Assembly: GCA_937920635.1 (NCBI GenBank) | Contig: CAKZUE010000046.1 | Coordinates: 1-64,000 of the forward strand | Reading direction: 5' to 3' | Origin: an uncultured Bryobacteraceae bacterium | GTDB taxonomy: Bacteria; Acidobacteriota; Terriglobia; Bryobacterales; Bryobacteraceae | DNA length: 64,000 bases | Translations under genes and position numbers: made by a program | Shown here: piece after piece, positions 7,809 through 15,360 of the stretch | How the letters are laid out: the number at the start of each line of letters is the position of its first letter | Numbering within the stretch: the first letter of the stretch is position 1 | Notes under the pieces: generated by a model | What the model saw: only the letters and a program-made list of their open reading frames with translations | Databases searched by the model: none | Told to the model about the DNA's origin: nothing

Positions 7809-9170
7809 TCAGCGGAGCTGGAACTTTTTCATCTTGTAACGGAGGGTGTCGCGGGTGATCTGGAGGAGCCTGGCAGCCTGGGTCTGATTGCCGCCGGTTT
7901 TTTCGAGCGCAGCCAGGATGAGGCGGCGCTCGTTCTCTTCCAGGCCGAGCCCGGAATCGGGCAGAGGAGGCAGCGCGGTCTGGGAGGGCTGCGGCGCCGG
8001 AGGCGTGTCGATGCGGCTGATGCTCTTCGGCAGGCTTTGCGGGGTGATGTAGCTGGAGTCCTCGAGGATCATGGCCCGCTCGATGGCGTTGCGCAGCTCG
8101 CGCACATTTCCGGGCCAGTCGTGCGCCAGCAGCAGCCGCATGGCATCCGGGGAAATGCCGTCCATCTGCCGTTTGAATTTCTTGTTGTAGTGCTGGACGA
8201 AGAAATTGGCCAGGGCGGCGATGTCTTCAGGGCGCTCGCGCAGCGGGGGAATGGTGATGTGAATCACGTTGAGGCGGAAATAGAGGTCCTGCCGGAAAGC
8301 CCCTTCCTTGACCGCCTCGCGAAGGTTCTTGTTGGTGGCGGCGACGACGCGCAGGTCGAGATTGATGTCGCGCAGCCCGCCGAGGCGGCGGAAGCTCTGC
8401 TCCTCGAGGACGCGAAGGAGCTTGGCCTGCAAGGTGAGGGGGATTTCGCCGATTTCGTCGAGGAAAAGGGTGCCTTTGTCGGCCAGCTCGAAGATGCCGC
8501 GCTTCTGGGCGCGGGCGTCGGTGAAGGCGCCCTTTTCGTAACCGAACAATTCGCTTTCGAGCAGCGTTTCGGGAATCGCGGCGCAATTGATGGCGATGAA
8601 CGGCTCGGCGGCGCGCAGGCTCTGATGATGGAGAGTCTTGGCGATCAGATCCTTGCCGACGCCGTTTTCGCCCTCCAGAAGAATGGTGGAGGCCTCGCTG
8701 ATGGCCACGCGGCGGACGAAGTGGAGCACCTCGCGCATGGCCGGACTCTCGGCGATGATCTCGCGCTTCTGCGATTCGATCTCGGCGCCGACGTCCTTGA
8801 TGGCCGCGAGGAACCCTTCCAGCGAGCCGTTGCCGGAGCGGAAGGGCGTGGTCTTCAGCACCACCAGCCGCTCGAATCCGTTGGCGGTATGGAGGCGGAC
8901 GGCGCCGTTGCCGCCGTTGATCTGCACCAGTCCCGGGTGCAAGCCGCAGCCGGGCTCGCACTCCTGGCAATGGAACATCTGACGGCAGTCGCGGCCGACG
9001 AGCTCGTCGGCGGTCATGCCCAGCAACTGCTCGGCGGCGGCATTGACGCCCCGGATGACGTGGTCGCGGTCGTAGAGGATGAGGGCTTCTGAAACGGTAT
9101 CGAAGATCTGCGCGAGGAGATCGGGAGTCTGCCAGGCCGCGTTGAGCTTTGCCATTTCGCCCTTCGTCAT
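7809..9170 (-). CDS. sigma-54-dependent transcriptional activator with PAS domain
   Basis: A 453-residue bacterial enhancer-binding protein. An N-terminal PAS sensor (about 15-130) contains Cys62, Cys68, Cys71 and Cys75 in a C-x5-C-x2-C-x3-C cluster. The AAA+ domain follows with Walker A GENGVGKD (167-174), the sigma-54 contact loop as GAFTDA rather than GAFTGA (214-219) and Walker B LFLDEI (235-240). A Fis-type helix-turn-helix ends the protein (TQAARLLQITRDTLRYK). The gene diverges from a cytochrome operon with a sigma-54 promoter, which makes that operon its likely target. A TACAAT -10 at 9174-9179 would place transcription near 9167, so ATG 9155 is an alternative start. Confidence 0.92.
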   Translation of the reverse strand: MTKGEMAKLNAAWQTPDLLAQIFDTVSEALILYDRDHVIRGVNAAAEQLLGMTADELVGRDCRQMFHCQECEPGCGLHPGLVQINGGNGAVRLHTANGFERLVVLKTTPFRSGNGSLEGFLAAIKDVGAEIESQKREIIAESPAMREVLHFVRRVAISEASTILLEGENGVGKDLIAKTLHHQSLRAAEPFIAINCAAIPETLLESELFGYEKGAFTDARAQKRGIFELADKGTLFLDEIGEIPLTLQAKLLRVLEEQSFRRLGGLRDINLDLRVVAATNKNLREAVKEGAFRQDLYFRLNVIHITIPPLRERPEDIAALANFFVQHYNKKFKRQMDGISPDAMRLLLAHDWPGNVRELRNAIERAMILEDSSYITPQSLPKSISRIDTPPAPQPSQTALPPLPDSGLGLEENERRLILAALEKTGGNQTQAARLLQITRDTLRYKMKKFQLR

Positions 9171-9218
9171 CTAATTGTAGACCTTCGGGGAGAGTTTCGG
9201 CAGCGCCGGTGGGGCGGA

Positions 9219-9236
9219 CTGGGTCAATTGCCCCAG
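9219..9236. promoter_or_regulatory. palindrome, candidate enhancer site for the sigma-54 activator
   Basis: CTGGGTCAATTGCCCCAG is an 18-bp palindrome with one mismatched pair. It lies about 105 bp upstream of the -24 element, a usual distance for an activator-binding site, and about 50 bp from the activator gene start, so it could also serve autoregulation. Confidence 0.45.
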
Positions 9237-9341
9237 AGAAGGGGGGCATGGGAAGCCGAAGCGGGCCGGGGGAGGGGCACAGCGCGGCTACAACGCCTTG
9301 GAAATGGCGGAATTTCGTGGATATAGGGGCCGGGGTCAGGT

Positions 9342-9357
9342 TGGACTCTCGATTGCA
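9342..9357 (+). promoter_or_regulatory. candidate sigma-54 (-24/-12) promoter
   Basis: TGGACTCTCGATTGCA, preceded by T, matches the sigma-54 consensus YTGGCACGNNNNTTGCW at YTGG and TTGCW. The GG and GC dinucleotides are at the required 12-bp offset. The CACG part is not kept. Transcription would start near 9369, leading into the cytochrome operon. The adjacent divergent gene encodes a sigma-54 activator. Confidence 0.55.
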
Positions 9358-9503
9358 AGGGTGTGCAGCGAATGCGCGGTTTCCGGGATCCTCTGTTCCG
9401 GAGCCGGGCGTTTGGAGATAGAGTGCGCGGGAAGCGCCAGCAAAACAGCCCCGGCCCAGGCGGAAACGCGGAAGCCGGGCTGGCGCACCCTGGGATCACG
9501 GCA

Positions 9504-9866
9504 ATGGGAACGATCCAGATCAGCCTCAGCGACGGAACGCGGGCCGAGGCGCTGTGTTCGCTTCTGGAGCGGAGCACGCAGACGCCCGTGTTGCGCGCGG
9601 AGAGGCCGGATCTGGAATCGGCGTGCGTGGCTGTGCTGGACGAAGAGACATTCCAACGGCTGCCTCGGCCGATCGAGTACGCCGACCGGATTGTGTTGAT
9701 CACCCGCCATGACGCCATGCACCTGAAAGAAGCCTGGGAGGCCGGGGTTCACTCGGTGCTGTCGGAGCAGGATCCGCTCAATACGGTGGTGCTGGCGGTT
9801 CTGGCCACCTGTCTTCGTTCCGGAACCCGGAAGCCGAAGCCGGCGGCCGGTCCTCCCGGACCGTAA
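9504..9866 (+). CDS. truncated receiver-like protein, first gene of the cytochrome operon
   Basis: A 120-residue protein that looks like the core of a response-regulator receiver domain without an output domain. VAVLD (about residues 44-48) could be the phosphoacceptor strand, and IVLITRHD, the Ala-Gly turn EAGVHSVL and the last helix resemble beta4-alpha5 of NarL-type receivers. The usual N-terminal acidic pair and beta5 Lys are not clear, so phosphorylation is doubtful. The start at 9504 (MGTIQIS) is preferred over the ORF start at 9363, because the extra N-terminus has no domain-like sequence. A CGGTCC/GGACCG hairpin overlaps the stop codon. Confidence 0.6.
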   Translation: MGTIQISLSDGTRAEALCSLLERSTQTPVLRAERPDLESACVAVLDEETFQRLPRPIEYADRIVLITRHDAMHLKEAWEAGVHSVLSEQDPLNTVVLAVLATCLRSGTRKPKPAAGPPGP

Positions 9867-9911
9867 CACGGCGGGGCGCCACCGCGCCCAGAACATTGGA
9901 GGTATGGAAGC

Positions 9912-10196
9912 ATGTCGAACCTGACACCGTATGCGATTGCGTGGGGCCTGCTGGCCCTGATTGTGATCTTCCTTGCCTTCTGGCGGCGGCATGTGGCATC
10001 GCAGGAAGACGATACGCTGCACGTCACGGGGCCGGATACGGTGATTTCGCAGCAGATGACCGTGGCGCGAAAACTGGAGCTGATCGACAGGTGGGGCAAA
10101 GCCCTCACGGTGGTTCTGGCCATCACCGGCCTGATTCTGGCCGTGCTGTACGGCATGTACATTTGGGAGGCGACATCCCGCGCCGGCCTGGCGTGA
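9912..10196 (+). CDS. small two-helix membrane protein of the cytochrome operon
   Basis: A 94-residue protein with two hydrophobic helices (about residues 8-24 and 64-84) and a hydrophilic middle. A GGAGGT site precedes the ATG. No domain is recognised. Its place between the receiver-like protein and the nine-heme cytochrome suggests an accessory subunit or assembly factor of the membrane cytochrome complex, but that rests on context only. Confidence 0.7.
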   Translation: MSNLTPYAIAWGLLALIVIFLAFWRRHVASQEDDTLHVTGPDTVISQQMTVARKLELIDRWGKALTVVLAITGLILAVLYGMYIWEATSRAGLA

Positions 10197-10206
10197 ACGG
10201 CGTTTG

Positions 10207-10229
10207 CGGCGGGCGCCAGGCGCCCGCCG
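10207..10229. repeat. perfect 11-bp inverted repeat between operon genes
   Basis: CGGCGGGCGCC, a single A, then its exact reverse complement. It lies between the small membrane protein and the nine-heme cytochrome and would form a very stable RNA hairpin. There is no T-tract, so it may act as an attenuator, processing site or mRNA stabiliser rather than a simple terminator. Confidence 0.6.
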
Positions 10230-10326
10230 AGGCCGGCAGGCTGACGTGGGACAAAGTATGAAACGAGGCCGAAGCGCGTCTGTTGAGGGGCGGGCGCGCG
10301 GCGGCGCGAAACAGGATGGACTCTGC

Positions 10327-11988
10327 ATGAGGCTGGGACTCTGGGCGGCACTATTGATTTTGTCTGTGTCCGCCGGCGCACAGACGGGCAGGAAGCCCGT
10401 GCGGCCGGCGACGGTTCCCAACAGCGTCTGCGCGGACTGCCATGATCAGGAGGCGAAGCTGAAAGAGTCAGCGCACGCTTCCGTAGCGTGCTCCAGTTGC
10501 CATCTGAAGCACGAGGAGTATCCGCATCCGGAGAACACGCCGAAGCCGCAGTGCGCCACCTGCCACGCCGGCACGGTGCGCGACTACGAACAGAGCGAGC
10601 ACGCGGCGCAGATGCGGAAGGGCAACGGCAGCGCGCCGGAATGCTCCACCTGCCACGGCGACGTGCATGAATCCAAACGCGCCCTCACGCTCGAGTTCCA
10701 TCGCAGCGTGCCGGACACCTGCGGCATGTGCCACGCCAACGAGGCAGAACAATTCCAGAAGAGCGTGCATGGCAAGGCGGTCGCCGCCGGGGTGCGGGAC
10801 GCGCCGGTGTGCTCGGACTGCCACGGCGGCCACCGCGTGTTGAAGGCCAAGGATCCCAACTCCACCGTGTTCCCCAACAGCGTCCCCGACACCTGCGGCC
10901 ACTGCCACGGCGACCTGCGGCTGGCGCGGCGCTTCGGTCTGCCGCCGGACCGCCTCAACACGTTCCAGCAGAGCTTCCACGGACTGGCGCTGAAATCGGG
11001 CAATCAGAGCGTGGCCGACTGCGCCTCCTGCCACGGCTATCATGACATCCTGCCTTCCTCCGATCCGGCGTCGCGGACCCATGTCAAGAACCTGTCGGCG
11101 ACCTGCGGCGCCTGCCATCCCGGCGCGGGGAGCCGCTTCGCCCTGGGACCGATCCATGAGGTGCAGGGCGCGAAGGCGCCGGCGCCGGTGCGGTGGGCCG
11201 AGTGGTTTTATGCCATGCTCATCCCCGGCACCATCGGATTCATGCTGATGCACCACGCCGGAGACTTCATCCGCAAGCTCGCCAGCATGCGGTTCCGGGG
11301 CAGGCACGTTCCGATGCAGTTGCTGCGCCGCATCGAGCCGCACCACGAGCGCATGTACCGGATGGAACGCATCCAGCACGCGCTGCTCGCCGTCAGCTTC
11401 ATCGTGCTGGTTTACACCGGCTTCGCGCTGCATTATCCCGACGCCTGGTGGTCTTCCTGGTTCCTCCGCTGGGAGAGCCAGGTGCCGCTGCGCGGCACCG
11501 TGCACCGCATTGCCGGCGTGGTGCTGATCGGCACTTCCATCCTGCACGTCGTCACGCTGGTGGTGAACCGCCAGTTGCGCGAGCACTGGAAGGAGATGCT
11601 GCCGCGCGCGCGCGACGCGCGCGAGCTGGTGGAAGGCACGCTATGGCGGCTGGGCTTGCGGCGCGAACGCCCGCACCGCTCGCCGCACAGCTACATTGAA
11701 AAGATGGAATACTGGGCGGTGGTGTGGGGCACGGCCATCATGGCGCTGACCGGGCTGCTGCTGTGGTTCCACAACTGGAGCCTGAGCGTCATGCCCAAGG
11801 TCGTGCTCGACGTCAGCCGGGTCATCCACTTCTATGAAGCCGTGCTGGCGACGCTTTCCATCCTGGTGTGGCACTTCTACATGGTGATTTTTGATCCGGC
11901 GGTCTATCCTCTCGATACGGCGTTTCTGAAGGGCTACAGCCCGCGGGCGGAATATGTCGACGCCGATGAGGCGGCGCTGGGTGACTGA
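10327..11988 (+). CDS. nine-heme cytochrome c fused to a cytochrome b membrane domain (CbcL-like)
   Basis: A 553-residue protein. A signal peptide (to about residue 20) is followed by a periplasmic domain (35-264) with nine CxxCH heme c motifs (CADCH, CSSCH, CATCH, CSTCH, CGMCH, CSDCH, CGHCH, CASCH, CGACH). The C-terminal part (about 290-530) has five membrane helices with paired His residues (RIQHALL, HRIAG, LHVV, VIHFYE, VWHFY), as in the diheme b subunit of formate dehydrogenase or hydrogenase. This matches the layout of Geobacter CbcL, an inner-membrane quinol oxidase in metal reduction. The start at 10327 gives a normal signal peptide; ATG 10258 is the alternative. Likely paired with the next gene. 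Confidence 0.85.
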   Translation: MRLGLWAALLILSVSAGAQTGRKPVRPATVPNSVCADCHDQEAKLKESAHASVACSSCHLKHEEYPHPENTPKPQCATCHAGTVRDYEQSEHAAQMRKGNGSAPECSTCHGDVHESKRALTLEFHRSVPDTCGMCHANEAEQFQKSVHGKAVAAGVRDAPVCSDCHGGHRVLKAKDPNSTVFPNSVPDTCGHCHGDLRLARRFGLPPDRLNTFQQSFHGLALKSGNQSVADCASCHGYHDILPSSDPASRTHVKNLSATCGACHPGAGSRFALGPIHEVQGAKAPAPVRWAEWFYAMLIPGTIGFMLMHHAGDFIRKLASMRFRGRHVPMQLLRRIEPHHERMYRMERIQHALLAVSFIVLVYTGFALHYPDAWWSSWFLRWESQVPLRGTVHRIAGVVLIGTSILHVVTLVVNRQLREHWKEMLPRARDARELVEGTLWRLGLRRERPHRSPHSYIEKMEYWAVVWGTAIMALTGLLLWFHNWSLSVMPKVVLDVSRVIHFYEAVLATLSILVWHFYMVIFDPAVYPLDTAFLKGYSPRAEYVDADEAALGD

Positions 11989-12012
11989 TTGCAAGATTCT
12001 CTGGGAGCGATT

Positions 12013-13431
12013 ATGAAGAGATTCCGAGATTGGCTGAGTCCCATTGTCTATCTCTCCAGCAACTGGATCAGCCTGATAGGCGTGGTGCTGGTGACCACTG
12101 GCGGCGTTCTCTGGGTGATGCTGCTGCCGGCCACGTTCCGCACGCATTCGCAGGACCCCTACGCGGGCATTCTGCAATTCCTCTTTCTGCCGGCGATCTT
12201 TTTCTCCGGGCTGGCATTGATCCCGGTCGGCATCTGGCATGTGAAGCGGAAGGGCAAACTGCCGGAGGTTTTCCCGCCGCTTGAATTGTCCAATCCCCGT
12301 TTCCGGAAGCTGCTGGCCTTCGTGGGGGCCGCCACGGCGGCCAATCTGGTGATCGGATCCAGCCTGCTCTACGGCGCGGTGCACTACATGGAAACGGTGA
12401 GCTTCTGCGGGCAGACGTGCCATACGGTGATGAAGCCGGAGTTCACCGCCTACCAGCACTCGCCTCACTCCCGGGTGGCGTGCGTCGAGTGCCACATCGG
12501 CCCTGGGGCCAACTGGTTTGTGAAGAGCAAGATCTCCGGCTCCTGGCAGGTGGTCTCCGTCGCGTTCAATCTCTATCCGAGGCCGATCCCCACGCCGATT
12601 GAAAACCTCCGTCCGGCCCGGGAAACCTGCGAGGTTTGCCACTGGCCGCAAAAGTTCGGCGGGGACCGGCTGCGCGTCATCAACCACTACGGCGAGGACG
12701 AAAAGGTCACGCGCACGCAGACCGTGCTGCTGATGCACATCGGCGGCGGCAACGGCTACCAGGGCATCCACGGGGCGCACATGGGCCCGGGCGTGGAGAT
12801 CCGCTACGCGCACGCGGACAAGGAGAGGCAGAAAATTCCCTGGGTGGAATACACGGGCGGAGACGGCAAGCGCTACGTCTACACGGCCGAGGGCCACTCG
12901 GGCGACGGCCCGGGATCGCTCCCGGTCCGCATGATGGACTGCATCGACTGCCACAACCGCCCGTCGCACAGCTACGAGATGCCCGGCAAGGCTGTCGACC
13001 GGGCCCTCGACGAGGGGCTCATCGACCGCACCCTGCCGTTCGCCAAGAAGGCGGCGCTCGACGTGATCCAGCAGGAATATGCGGCCACGGCCGAAAGCGA
13101 GCGGGAAATTCCGAAGCGTTTTGCCGCATTTTATGAGAAGAACTACCCGGAGATTTTTGCCTCCAGGCGGCAGGATGTCGAGCGCAGCGCACGCGGCGCT
13201 CTGTCGATATACAGCCGCAATGTTTTCCCGGAAATGCGGGTGAAATGGGGTACCTATTTCAACAATATCGGGCACGTTGATTTCGATGGCTGCTTCCGCT
13301 GCCACGACTGGCGCGAATCGAAACCCGCCGGCCGCTCCATCACCCAGGACTGCGACACCTGCCACAAGACGCTGGCGCAGGAAGAGGAGAACCCGAAGGT
13401 TTTGGCCGACCTGGGCCTCTCAGGCAAATAA
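12013..13431 (+). CDS. NapC/NirT-type membrane multiheme cytochrome c (ImcH-like)
   Basis: A 472-residue protein anchored by three N-terminal helices (about residues 14-40, 55-80, 95-120) with a large periplasmic multiheme part. Heme sites are one CX3CH (CGQTCH at 132, followed by a Met) and five CxxCH (CVECH, CEVCH, CIDCH, CFRCH, CDTCH). Blocks such as CHIGPGANWFVKSK and PRPIPTPIENLRPA are, as I recall, shared with Geobacter ImcH and its relatives. The expected role is to oxidise menaquinol and pass electrons to periplasmic cytochromes. The start at 12013 has GGGAG upstream and lies 24 bp after the preceding stop. Confidence 0.82.
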   Translation: MKRFRDWLSPIVYLSSNWISLIGVVLVTTGGVLWVMLLPATFRTHSQDPYAGILQFLFLPAIFFSGLALIPVGIWHVKRKGKLPEVFPPLELSNPRFRKLLAFVGAATAANLVIGSSLLYGAVHYMETVSFCGQTCHTVMKPEFTAYQHSPHSRVACVECHIGPGANWFVKSKISGSWQVVSVAFNLYPRPIPTPIENLRPARETCEVCHWPQKFGGDRLRVINHYGEDEKVTRTQTVLLMHIGGGNGYQGIHGAHMGPGVEIRYAHADKERQKIPWVEYTGGDGKRYVYTAEGHSGDGPGSLPVRMMDCIDCHNRPSHSYEMPGKAVDRALDEGLIDRTLPFAKKAALDVIQQEYAATAESEREIPKRFAAFYEKNYPEIFASRRQDVERSARGALSIYSRNVFPEMRVKWGTYFNNIGHVDFDGCFRCHDWRESKPAGRSITQDCDTCHKTLAQEEENPKVLADLGLSGK

Positions 13432-13491: not shown

Positions 13492-14358
13492 ATGCCGCTC
13501 AGCCACATTCTGGCGCCCGTGGATTTTTCCGAGAAGAGCGAGTGCGCGGCGCGCTACGCCGGGGCGCTGCAGAAACGCTTCGGAAGCCGGATCACGCTGC
13601 TGCACGTGCTGCCGCCGCCGCACTACGAGTTCGGCGCCATGGAGGTGGGGGGCAGCGTGCTGGAAGAGCTGTTCCGCAGCCGCGCCGAGCAGGCGCGCAA
13701 GGACCTGGATGCCTTCCTCGCTGAGGAACTTCCCCCAGGCAGCGCCGACAGGCTGATTCTGGAGGGCGACCCGGCGGCGAAGATCGTCAGGACGGCGCAC
13801 GATCTGGGGGTGAGCCTCATCGTGATGCCCACGCACGGGTATGGAACCTTCCGGCGCTTCATCCTGGGATCGGTGACGGCCAAGGTCCTCCATGACGCCG
13901 ATTGTCCGGTCTGGACCGGCGTGCACATGGAAGCGGCTCGAGTGGAGGACGTCCGCCTGGGGAAAGTGGCCGTGGGCGTGGATCTGCGGTCGCAGTCGGA
14001 GCGCACGCTGATGTGGGCGCGGCGGTTCGCGCAGGAAGTGGGCGCTGAGGTGGCCCTGCTGCACGTTATGCCCTGCCTGGAAGGGCCCGGTGGCGAACCT
14101 GTCGACCCCGAGTGGCAGGAGCGGATGGAAGCTGCAGCGCGGGAGGAGATCCACGGGTTGATGAAGCGCCTGGGCTGGGAGGCGCCGGTTCTGGCCGGCA
14201 GCGGCGACATACCGGAAGCGGTATGCCGCCTGGCGAAGGAGTGGGAAGCGGATCTGCTGGTGATCGGGCGCGGTTCGGCGTCCGGCGTGCTCGGCCGGCT
14301 GCGGGCCAACGCCTATTCGATCATCCGGCAGTCGGATTGTCCGGTGGTCAGCGTCTGA
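13492..14358 (+). CDS. tandem universal stress protein (UspA) domains
   Basis: A 288-residue protein of two UspA domains. The first (about 1-145) keeps the ATP-binding motif as PTHGYGTFRRFILGSV; the second (about 155-288) has a weaker GRGSASG version, so only one site may bind nucleotide. A strong ribosome site (AAGGAGGGAGG) precedes the ATG. A TTGACA lies upstream at 13455 without a convincing -10. Usp proteins often accompany respiratory or low-oxygen regulons; its position after the cytochromes fits that. Confidence 0.88.
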   Translation: MPLSHILAPVDFSEKSECAARYAGALQKRFGSRITLLHVLPPPHYEFGAMEVGGSVLEELFRSRAEQARKDLDAFLAEELPPGSADRLILEGDPAAKIVRTAHDLGVSLIVMPTHGYGTFRRFILGSVTAKVLHDADCPVWTGVHMEAARVEDVRLGKVAVGVDLRSQSERTLMWARRFAQEVGAEVALLHVMPCLEGPGGEPVDPEWQERMEAAAREEIHGLMKRLGWEAPVLAGSGDIPEAVCRLAKEWEADLLVIGRGSASGVLGRLRANAYSIIRQSDCPVVSV

Positions 14359-14406: not shown

Positions 14407-15360
14407 GTGGAACAGGCGGAGTGCAGGGCTGCGGCTGATCCTCGCGCGGCGCAGGGGCCGGTGTCCCGGCCTGCCGATTTGGCGTGGGAGACCTGGCGCG
14501 AGGCGCTGGAGCGCCACCGCCGGTGGCTGGATGGCGAGGCCGGCGGCGAAATGTGCCAGTTGCGGCATGTGAAAATCGAGGGGCTCCGCGCGCCGCATGC
14601 ACGCCTGGCGAGGGGCGCCTTTTTCAAGGTGGAGCTGCCGGCAGCGGATCTGCACGCCGCCATGCTCGACGGCAGCCAGTGGGAGGCATGCGACCTGTCG
14701 CTGGTGAACCTCTCTAGCGCCGCGCTGGACGGCGCCACGCTGGAAGAAGTCCTGCTCCATGACGCCTGCCTGGCATCGGCCAGCCTTTGTGCGGCAGTCC
14801 TTGGCGCCTGCCCTATGGAGAAGGCGCGGGCGCCGGCAAGCCGGTGGATGGAAGCGCGGCTCGGGCGGGTGGATTTTTCGGGCGCGCTGCTGCCGGATGC
14901 CTCCTTTCACAAGGCGTCATTGCTGGAGTGCCTGTTTTCGGAAACGGAATTGGCACGCTCGCTGTTTTATGGCGCCACGCTCCGCTTCTGCCGCTTCATC
15001 CGCTGCCGCGGGGAGGATCTGCGGTTCAACGGCGCGCTGTTGCAGCACTGCCACTTCGAGAAATGCAGATTGGAGCGGGCGAGGTTTCCAGGCGCGGATC
15101 TGGGCGGTTCGTGTTTCCACGACTGCCTGCTGGCGGGTTGCGATTTCCGCGGCGCCCGGCTGCGGGGCACCCAGTTCACCGGCGCCCGGCTGCAAGGGGC
15201 GCGCTTCGACGACGCATCATGCGCCGGGGCGGATTTCCGCGGCGCGAACCTCCAGGGAGCGCAGGGGATCACCCTGCATCAGTTGCTCCGGGCGCGCACG
15301 GATTCCACCACCATCCTGCCCTGGGGAACGCCCGGCCCGGCGATGCGGGGCAGCCGCTGA
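14407..15360 (+). CDS. Cys-rich pentapeptide-repeat protein
   Basis: A 317-residue protein mostly built of A(D/N)LxX-type repeats (for example LRGTQFTGARLQGARF), which fold as a right-handed quadrilateral beta-helix. The repeats run from about residue 55 to 290. An unusual number of Cys and His residues fill the outward positions (RFCRFIRC, HCHFEKC, CFHDCLLAGC). There is no signal peptide. The start is GTG at 14407. Function unknown; it follows the UspA gene by 48 bp and may be the last gene of the respiratory operon. Confidence 0.75.
   Translation: MEQAECRAAADPRAAQGPVSRPADLAWETWREALERHRRWLDGEAGGEMCQLRHVKIEGLRAPHARLARGAFFKVELPAADLHAAMLDGSQWEACDLSLVNLSSAALDGATLEEVLLHDACLASASLCAAVLGACPMEKARAPASRWMEARLGRVDFSGALLPDASFHKASLLECLFSETELARSLFYGATLRFCRFIRCRGEDLRFNGALLQHCHFEKCRLERARFPGADLGGSCFHDCLLAGCDFRGARLRGTQFTGARLQGARFDDASCAGADFRGANLQGAQGITLHQLLRARTDSTTILPWGTPGPAMRGSR

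Follow-up and report, generated by a model that had tools for sequence, protein, structure and literature searches.

Does the sigma-54 activator encoded beside a multiheme cytochrome operon in an uncultured member of the Bryobacteraceae control that operon, and through which DNA elements would it do so? Little is known about the control of respiratory electron transport in Acidobacteriota. The locus lies in a 64,000-nucleotide stretch (the window) of a 4.15 Mb genome, for which the original prediction proposed a local sigma-54 circuit controlling the cytochrome operon. That proposal is supported by synteny, by a conserved promoter footprint, by the uniqueness of the operator, by the presence of rpoN and by the promoters of split clusters in related genomes. 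We consider it highly probable that the activator, the operator and the -24/-12 promoter before the cytochrome operon constitute a dedicated circuit with a single target. The elements of the locus are listed below.

7809..9155, minus strand: activator (bacterial enhancer-binding protein), 448 aa, with PAS, AAA+ sigma-54 activation and Fis-type helix-turn-helix domains (Pfam)
9174..9179, minus strand: TACAAT, probable sigma-70-type -10 of the activator promoter, predicted start ~9167
9219..9236, no strand assigned: operator (putative upstream activator site) CTGGGTCAATTGCCCCAG, conserved, with the family core TGGGNNAATTNNCCCA at 9220-9235
9341..9357, plus strand: predicted -24/-12 sigma-54 promoter TTGGACTCTCGATTGCA, GG at 9343-9344 and GC at 9355-9356
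9504..9866, plus strand: first gene of the operon, encoding a receiver-fold protein of 120 aa; relatives share both its start and its sequence
9912..10196, plus strand: small membrane protein of 94 aa with two hydrophobic stretches; a conserved member of the operon
10327..11988, plus strand: membrane bc cytochrome, nine CXXCH motifs followed by a cytochrome b561/formate-dehydrogenase-gamma-like membrane domain
12013..13431, plus strand: membrane-anchored NapC/NrfH-like multiheme cytochrome, five CXXCH motifs (Pfam/NCBIfam)
13492..14358, plus strand: gene for a double universal stress protein, separated from the cytochromes by 60 bp and probably part of the operon
14407..15360, plus strand: pentapeptide-repeat protein (Pfam), 48 bp after the stress-protein gene, possible last operon gene

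Gene content of the locus

The divergent gene does encode a sigma-54 activator, as had been predicted. Pfam searches resolved a PAS domain, a sigma-54 interaction AAA+ domain (PF00158, 3.3e-69) together with its lid domain, and a C-terminal Fis-type helix-turn-helix (PF02954, 1.8e-17). The divergent arrangement with the cytochrome operon also stood, but the gene next to the activator is not a cytochrome gene: the operon begins at 9504 with a receiver-like protein, and the cytochromes follow from about 10327. This first protein matched nothing in Pfam or NCBIfam, and a profile search of the PDB returned no usable sequence relative for it or for the bc cytochrome. Its AlphaFold2 model (pLDDT 88.5), however, matched the receivers of VanR, DesR and PhoB in Foldseek. 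Among relatives Asp46 is near-invariant and residue 67 is mostly Thr, while Ser/Glu or Phe takes the place of the Lys expected ahead of the last helix. Lacking the second acid and the usual Lys, the protein has an incomplete phosphorylation site and is best described as an atypical receiver.

The reading frame at 9896-10261 proved to be the wrong frame, the conserved gene being the small membrane protein at 9912-10196. For the NapC/NrfH-like gene the frame can open at 11989, but relatives align from residue 9, and the most likely start is 12013. Inclusion of the pentapeptide-repeat gene in the operon is possible, judging from spacing only. Gene content varies among relatives. For example, in a sister clade (L050, L060 and L110) a secreted protein of ~72 aa with a single CXXCH is encoded directly behind the promoter and before the receiver-like gene; no such monoheme protein was seen in the 135-nt leader of the window. 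Sister-clade loci such as L214 (7198-7545) and L208 (7243-7590) carry a conserved cysteine-rich protein of ~116 aa with repeated CxxC between the receiver-like and small membrane genes, which is absent from the window.

Conservation of the predicted -24/-12 promoter

The TTGG and TTGCA that had been pointed out as a correctly spaced -24/-12 element can be read directly from the sequence at 9341-9344 and 9353-9357, and the GG and GC of TTGGACTCTCGATTGCA are 10 bases apart, which is the canonical spacing. From this position the operon transcript is predicted to start at ~9368, in agreement with the start near 9369 proposed earlier. The genome also encodes rpoN (3.6e-59), a gene whose absence had been named as evidence that would count against the circuit. 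A genome scan with the generic pattern TGGCACGN4TTGCW, allowing two mismatches at most, had no power, since it returned 469 matches as compared to 588 for the backwards control. The generic motif is thus inseparable from background in one genome, and we therefore turned to relatives.

Approximately 100 loci of relatives were fetched, and 51, including the window, were kept on the criterion that they contain the activator gene in divergent order with the first gene of the operon. This order is kept across many genera in the synteny comparison. A relative of the second cytochrome is encoded in 155 of 200 Bryobacteraceae genomes, and is present in 96 of 100 activator-bearing genomes of the family as compared to 59 of 100 without the activator. 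Four loci (L177, L225, L236 and L242) are labelled Arcobacter, Acidimicrobiia, Bacillota and Woeseiaceae, respectively; their genes are near those of Acidobacteriota and the bins are probably mislabelled.

The 51 gaps between activator and operon were searched with dinucleotide shuffles and the reverse strand as controls. TGG-N7-ATTGC[A/T] was present on the operon strand in 49 of the 51, whereas shuffled gaps gave a mean of 0.18 matches and a maximum of 2, and the reverse strand of the 51 gaps gave 0. Across the 49 loci the TGG and ATTGC are invariant and the intervening bases variable, as predicted if functional constraint acts on two contact points. The -24 block fits the general consensus only in its TGG; the CACG that follows in the consensus is not kept.

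These data bear directly on the possibility that a sigma-70-family or ECF promoter drives most transcription of the operon, the -24/-12 motif being incidental, a reading that draws on the inability of single-genome motif scans to separate the site from background. However, TGG and TTGC are held at fixed spacing in all but two of the gaps, and no sigma-70-like site passed a scan of 9120-9520 on both strands. We accordingly regard a promoter of that kind as exceedingly improbable. Sigma-54 control of the operon is very likely from the pattern of conservation. Any one of the elements, taken alone in a single sequence, is nearly compatible with chance, and it is the comparison among relatives that provides the decisive evidence for a sigma-54 circuit.

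A conserved operator and a probable promoter of the activator

The near-perfect 18-bp palindrome that had been described at 9219-9236 was recovered at that position. Eight of the nine pairs of CTGGGTCAATTGCCCCAG match, T9224/C9231 being the sole mismatch, and the palindrome is separated from the TGG of the promoter by 105 bp, which is the distance that had been estimated. Its centre lies ~140 bp upstream of the predicted +1, a position that is conserved and within the range of ~80-200 bp for dyad operators. With a position weight matrix built by leaving out the scored locus, the palindrome reached 26.6 bits as compared to -1.5 +/- 4.5 for shuffled sequences, and a strong operator was found by this matrix in nearly all loci. 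Inspection by eye revealed no convincing IHF site between operator and promoter.

The core TGGGNNAATTNNCCCA occurs as a single copy in the window genome. Of the 36 relatives searched, 24 likewise have exactly one copy, located in the gap between activator and operon in 21 of them; the core is absent from the four activator-lacking genomes that were checked. A few sites elsewhere were set aside as chance: exact operators outside the locus in G015, G026 and G073, and one-mismatch sites in the window genome, have no -24/-12 element nearby and mostly lie inside reading frames. In the clade of the window one strong operator is detectable. In the sister clade there are two, 31 bp or three helical turns apart, as expected for an activator that binds as dimers and forms a ring. 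Many sigma-54 activators use two operators. The comparison of sequences shows how the genes are arranged and that three DNA elements, one operator per genome and the domains of the activator have been conserved, and it argues strongly that this activator binds this operator.

The third conserved element is a TACAAT- or TATAAT-like hexamer, found on the minus strand 5-40 nt upstream of the activator start in 46 of the 51 loci, and probably serves as the -10 for transcription of the activator itself. It also helps to place the activator start. The activator frame can open at 9170, but relatives start at the next methionine with a conserved MAKL or MSKL, and the predicted transcription start (~9167) lies downstream of the ATG at 9170. 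The activator therefore most likely starts at 9155, where the ATG would be preceded by a 12-nt leader containing AAGGG.

The proximity of this promoter raises the question of what the palindrome is for. Even with a real and activator-driven -24/-12 promoter, the palindrome might serve mainly for autoregulation of the activator, through repression or activation of the TACAAT promoter, or might belong to another regulator. Indeed, within the gap it lies toward the activator, nearer to the activator -10 than to the -24, and in the sister clade an operator lies ~10 bp from the activator -10 and over the -35 region, making autoregulation likely there. However, the palindrome tracks the activator gene, occurring once per genome and adjoining it, its distance to the -24 is ~90-116 bp in most loci, as is usual for upstream activator sites, and the sister clade has a second operator nearer the promoter. 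A palindrome serving mainly these other purposes is therefore improbable in our estimation, and because dual use of the site is likely, autoregulation is more a complement than an alternative to activation of the operon.

Promoters in split clusters

Relatives in which the cluster has been broken up retain the promoter. Where the second cytochrome stands alone (L068, L070 and L158), a -24/-12 site is found 50-64 bp upstream of it. Similarly, in L061 and L122 the activator has moved elsewhere and a -24/-12 site is retained before the first operon gene. The unlinked activator in L166, L167, L169 and L175 still faces a -24/-12 site, positioned before other genes of the operon. The genes that face an unlinked activator are those for the receiver-like, small membrane or stress protein, and in four genomes the stress-protein gene faces it either directly or within a short operon.

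The sensor domain of the activator

The PAS domain carries four cysteines in the arrangement C-x5-C-x2-C-x3-C (C57, C63, C66 and C70), which we found in 49 of 49 orthologues examined. The same 49 have GAFTDA rather than GAFTGA in the AAA+ loop, and for Desulfovibrio vulgaris GAFTDA is listed among the loop variants that still allow activation (PMC4641369). An AlphaFold2 model of the whole activator was of low confidence (pLDDT 55), too poor to judge whether the cysteines cluster. Their invariance suggests an Fe-S cluster, zinc or a thiol switch, and we have moderate confidence that redox is the signal to which the activator responds.

A different reading leaves the action of the activator on the operon genes intact and removes its redox response: the Cys4 PAS would hold structural zinc, and the signal would come from a different ligand or from a partner, for instance the receiver-like protein. 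Zinc binding by a PAS domain with a regulatory effect is known from WalK of S. aureus (PMC6624279), and in the window the operon opens with the gene for a receiver-fold protein that could feed back. On the other hand, a redox role would be natural for a regulator that is tied to electron-transport genes and has four invariant cysteines. We give the structural-zinc reading a substantial chance, somewhat below even. A bolder form of the redox reading, which we put forward tentatively and think rather unlikely, is that the Cys4 PAS directly detects an Fe-S cluster or the redox state and that the operon's atypical receiver feeds back on the activator. The activator would then represent a new, redox-gated class among enhancer-binding proteins, and would determine at what point Acidobacteriota bring a CbcL-like respiratory branch of low potential into use.

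In another family of the same class (L171-L174), orthologues of the activator with 58-59% identity also have the Cys4 arrangement. No GAFT-D/G-A loop was matched in these proteins, and no -24/-12 site was found upstream.

A model for control of the cytochrome operon

In the model that we favour, the divergent activator would be made from its own TACAAT-type promoter and would bind the palindrome as a dimer at its position upstream of the predicted start. Once the Cys4 PAS reports the right redox or metal state, the activator would assemble into an AAA+ ring and loop onto sigma-54 polymerase at TTGGACTCTCGATTGCA, where ATP hydrolysis would open the promoter. The receiver-like, small membrane, nine-heme bc and NapC/NrfH-like proteins would then be expressed, probably along with the stress protein, and the operon product would serve to move electrons out of the quinone pool to acceptors in the periplasm or outside the cell. 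Quinol oxidation toward low-potential acceptors is the natural reading of the gene content, and one that we hold with moderate confidence.

Relation to known systems

In mechanism the locus conforms to one-component sigma-54 regulons of the ordinary kind; its novelty lies in the target, the phylum, the operator and the Cys4 sensor. As in the local regulons of one-component PAS-AAA+-Fis activators of Desulfovibrio vulgaris, where enhancer-binding proteins are co-localised with their operons (PMC4641369), the activator adjoins its target, a palindromic site lies upstream of a -24/-12 promoter, and each regulator has one operon; the GAFTDA variant is likewise shared. Unlike those regulons, the window has a bc/NapC-type multiheme cytochrome operon as the target, in an acidobacterium, with the operator TGGGNNAATTNNCCCA and a Cys4 PAS. 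A comparative survey of sigma-54 regulons mentions neither Acidobacteriota nor cytochromes (PMC12316311).

Two cytochromes of Geobacter invite comparison. CbcL of Geobacter sulfurreducens (GSU0274) joins a periplasmic domain with nine c-type hemes to a membrane domain of six helices that holds two b hemes (PMC9129911). The bc cytochrome of the window resembles it in architecture, with nine CXXCH motifs and a b561/HydC/FdnI-like domain in one chain, whereas its operon differs in including a NapC/NrfH-like cytochrome. The original prediction took Geobacter cbcL to depend on a sigma-54 activator. We could not confirm this: the RpoN-regulon paper is without GSU0274, GSU0593, GSU0594 and GSU0598, and sigma-54 control of cbcL was not found in the papers that we consulted on CbcL and CbcBA.

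The Geobacter operon that reportedly has a sigma-54-type regulator (BccR), in work ascribed to Joshi et al. in 2021, is cbcBA. Like cbcBA with its reported regulator, the window pairs an inner-membrane bc cytochrome with a dedicated regulator, although the cytochrome is of other architecture and the phylum is another. Induction of CbcBA occurs when more easily used acceptors are lacking, as redox potential falls (PMC12307469). The locus described here offers an independent case to set beside the regulated inner-membrane cytochromes of Geobacter, and a direct handle on when bacteria that are abundant in soil and groundwater switch to other electron acceptors.

The unit of regulator, operator, promoter and operon is concrete and recurs in many genera, including an Fe(III) reducer, and is thereby directly testable. 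In the cultured Paludibaculum fermentans P105T, for which dissimilatory Fe(III) reduction is documented, the activator, the operator and a promoter, TGGCCTTTTGATTGCA, at ~1,687,775-1,687,790 of the chromosome, occur in the same order as in the window. Relatives of the bc cytochrome with 40-45% identity are also encoded in contigs labelled Deltaproteobacteria, Ignavibacteria and Omnitrophota.
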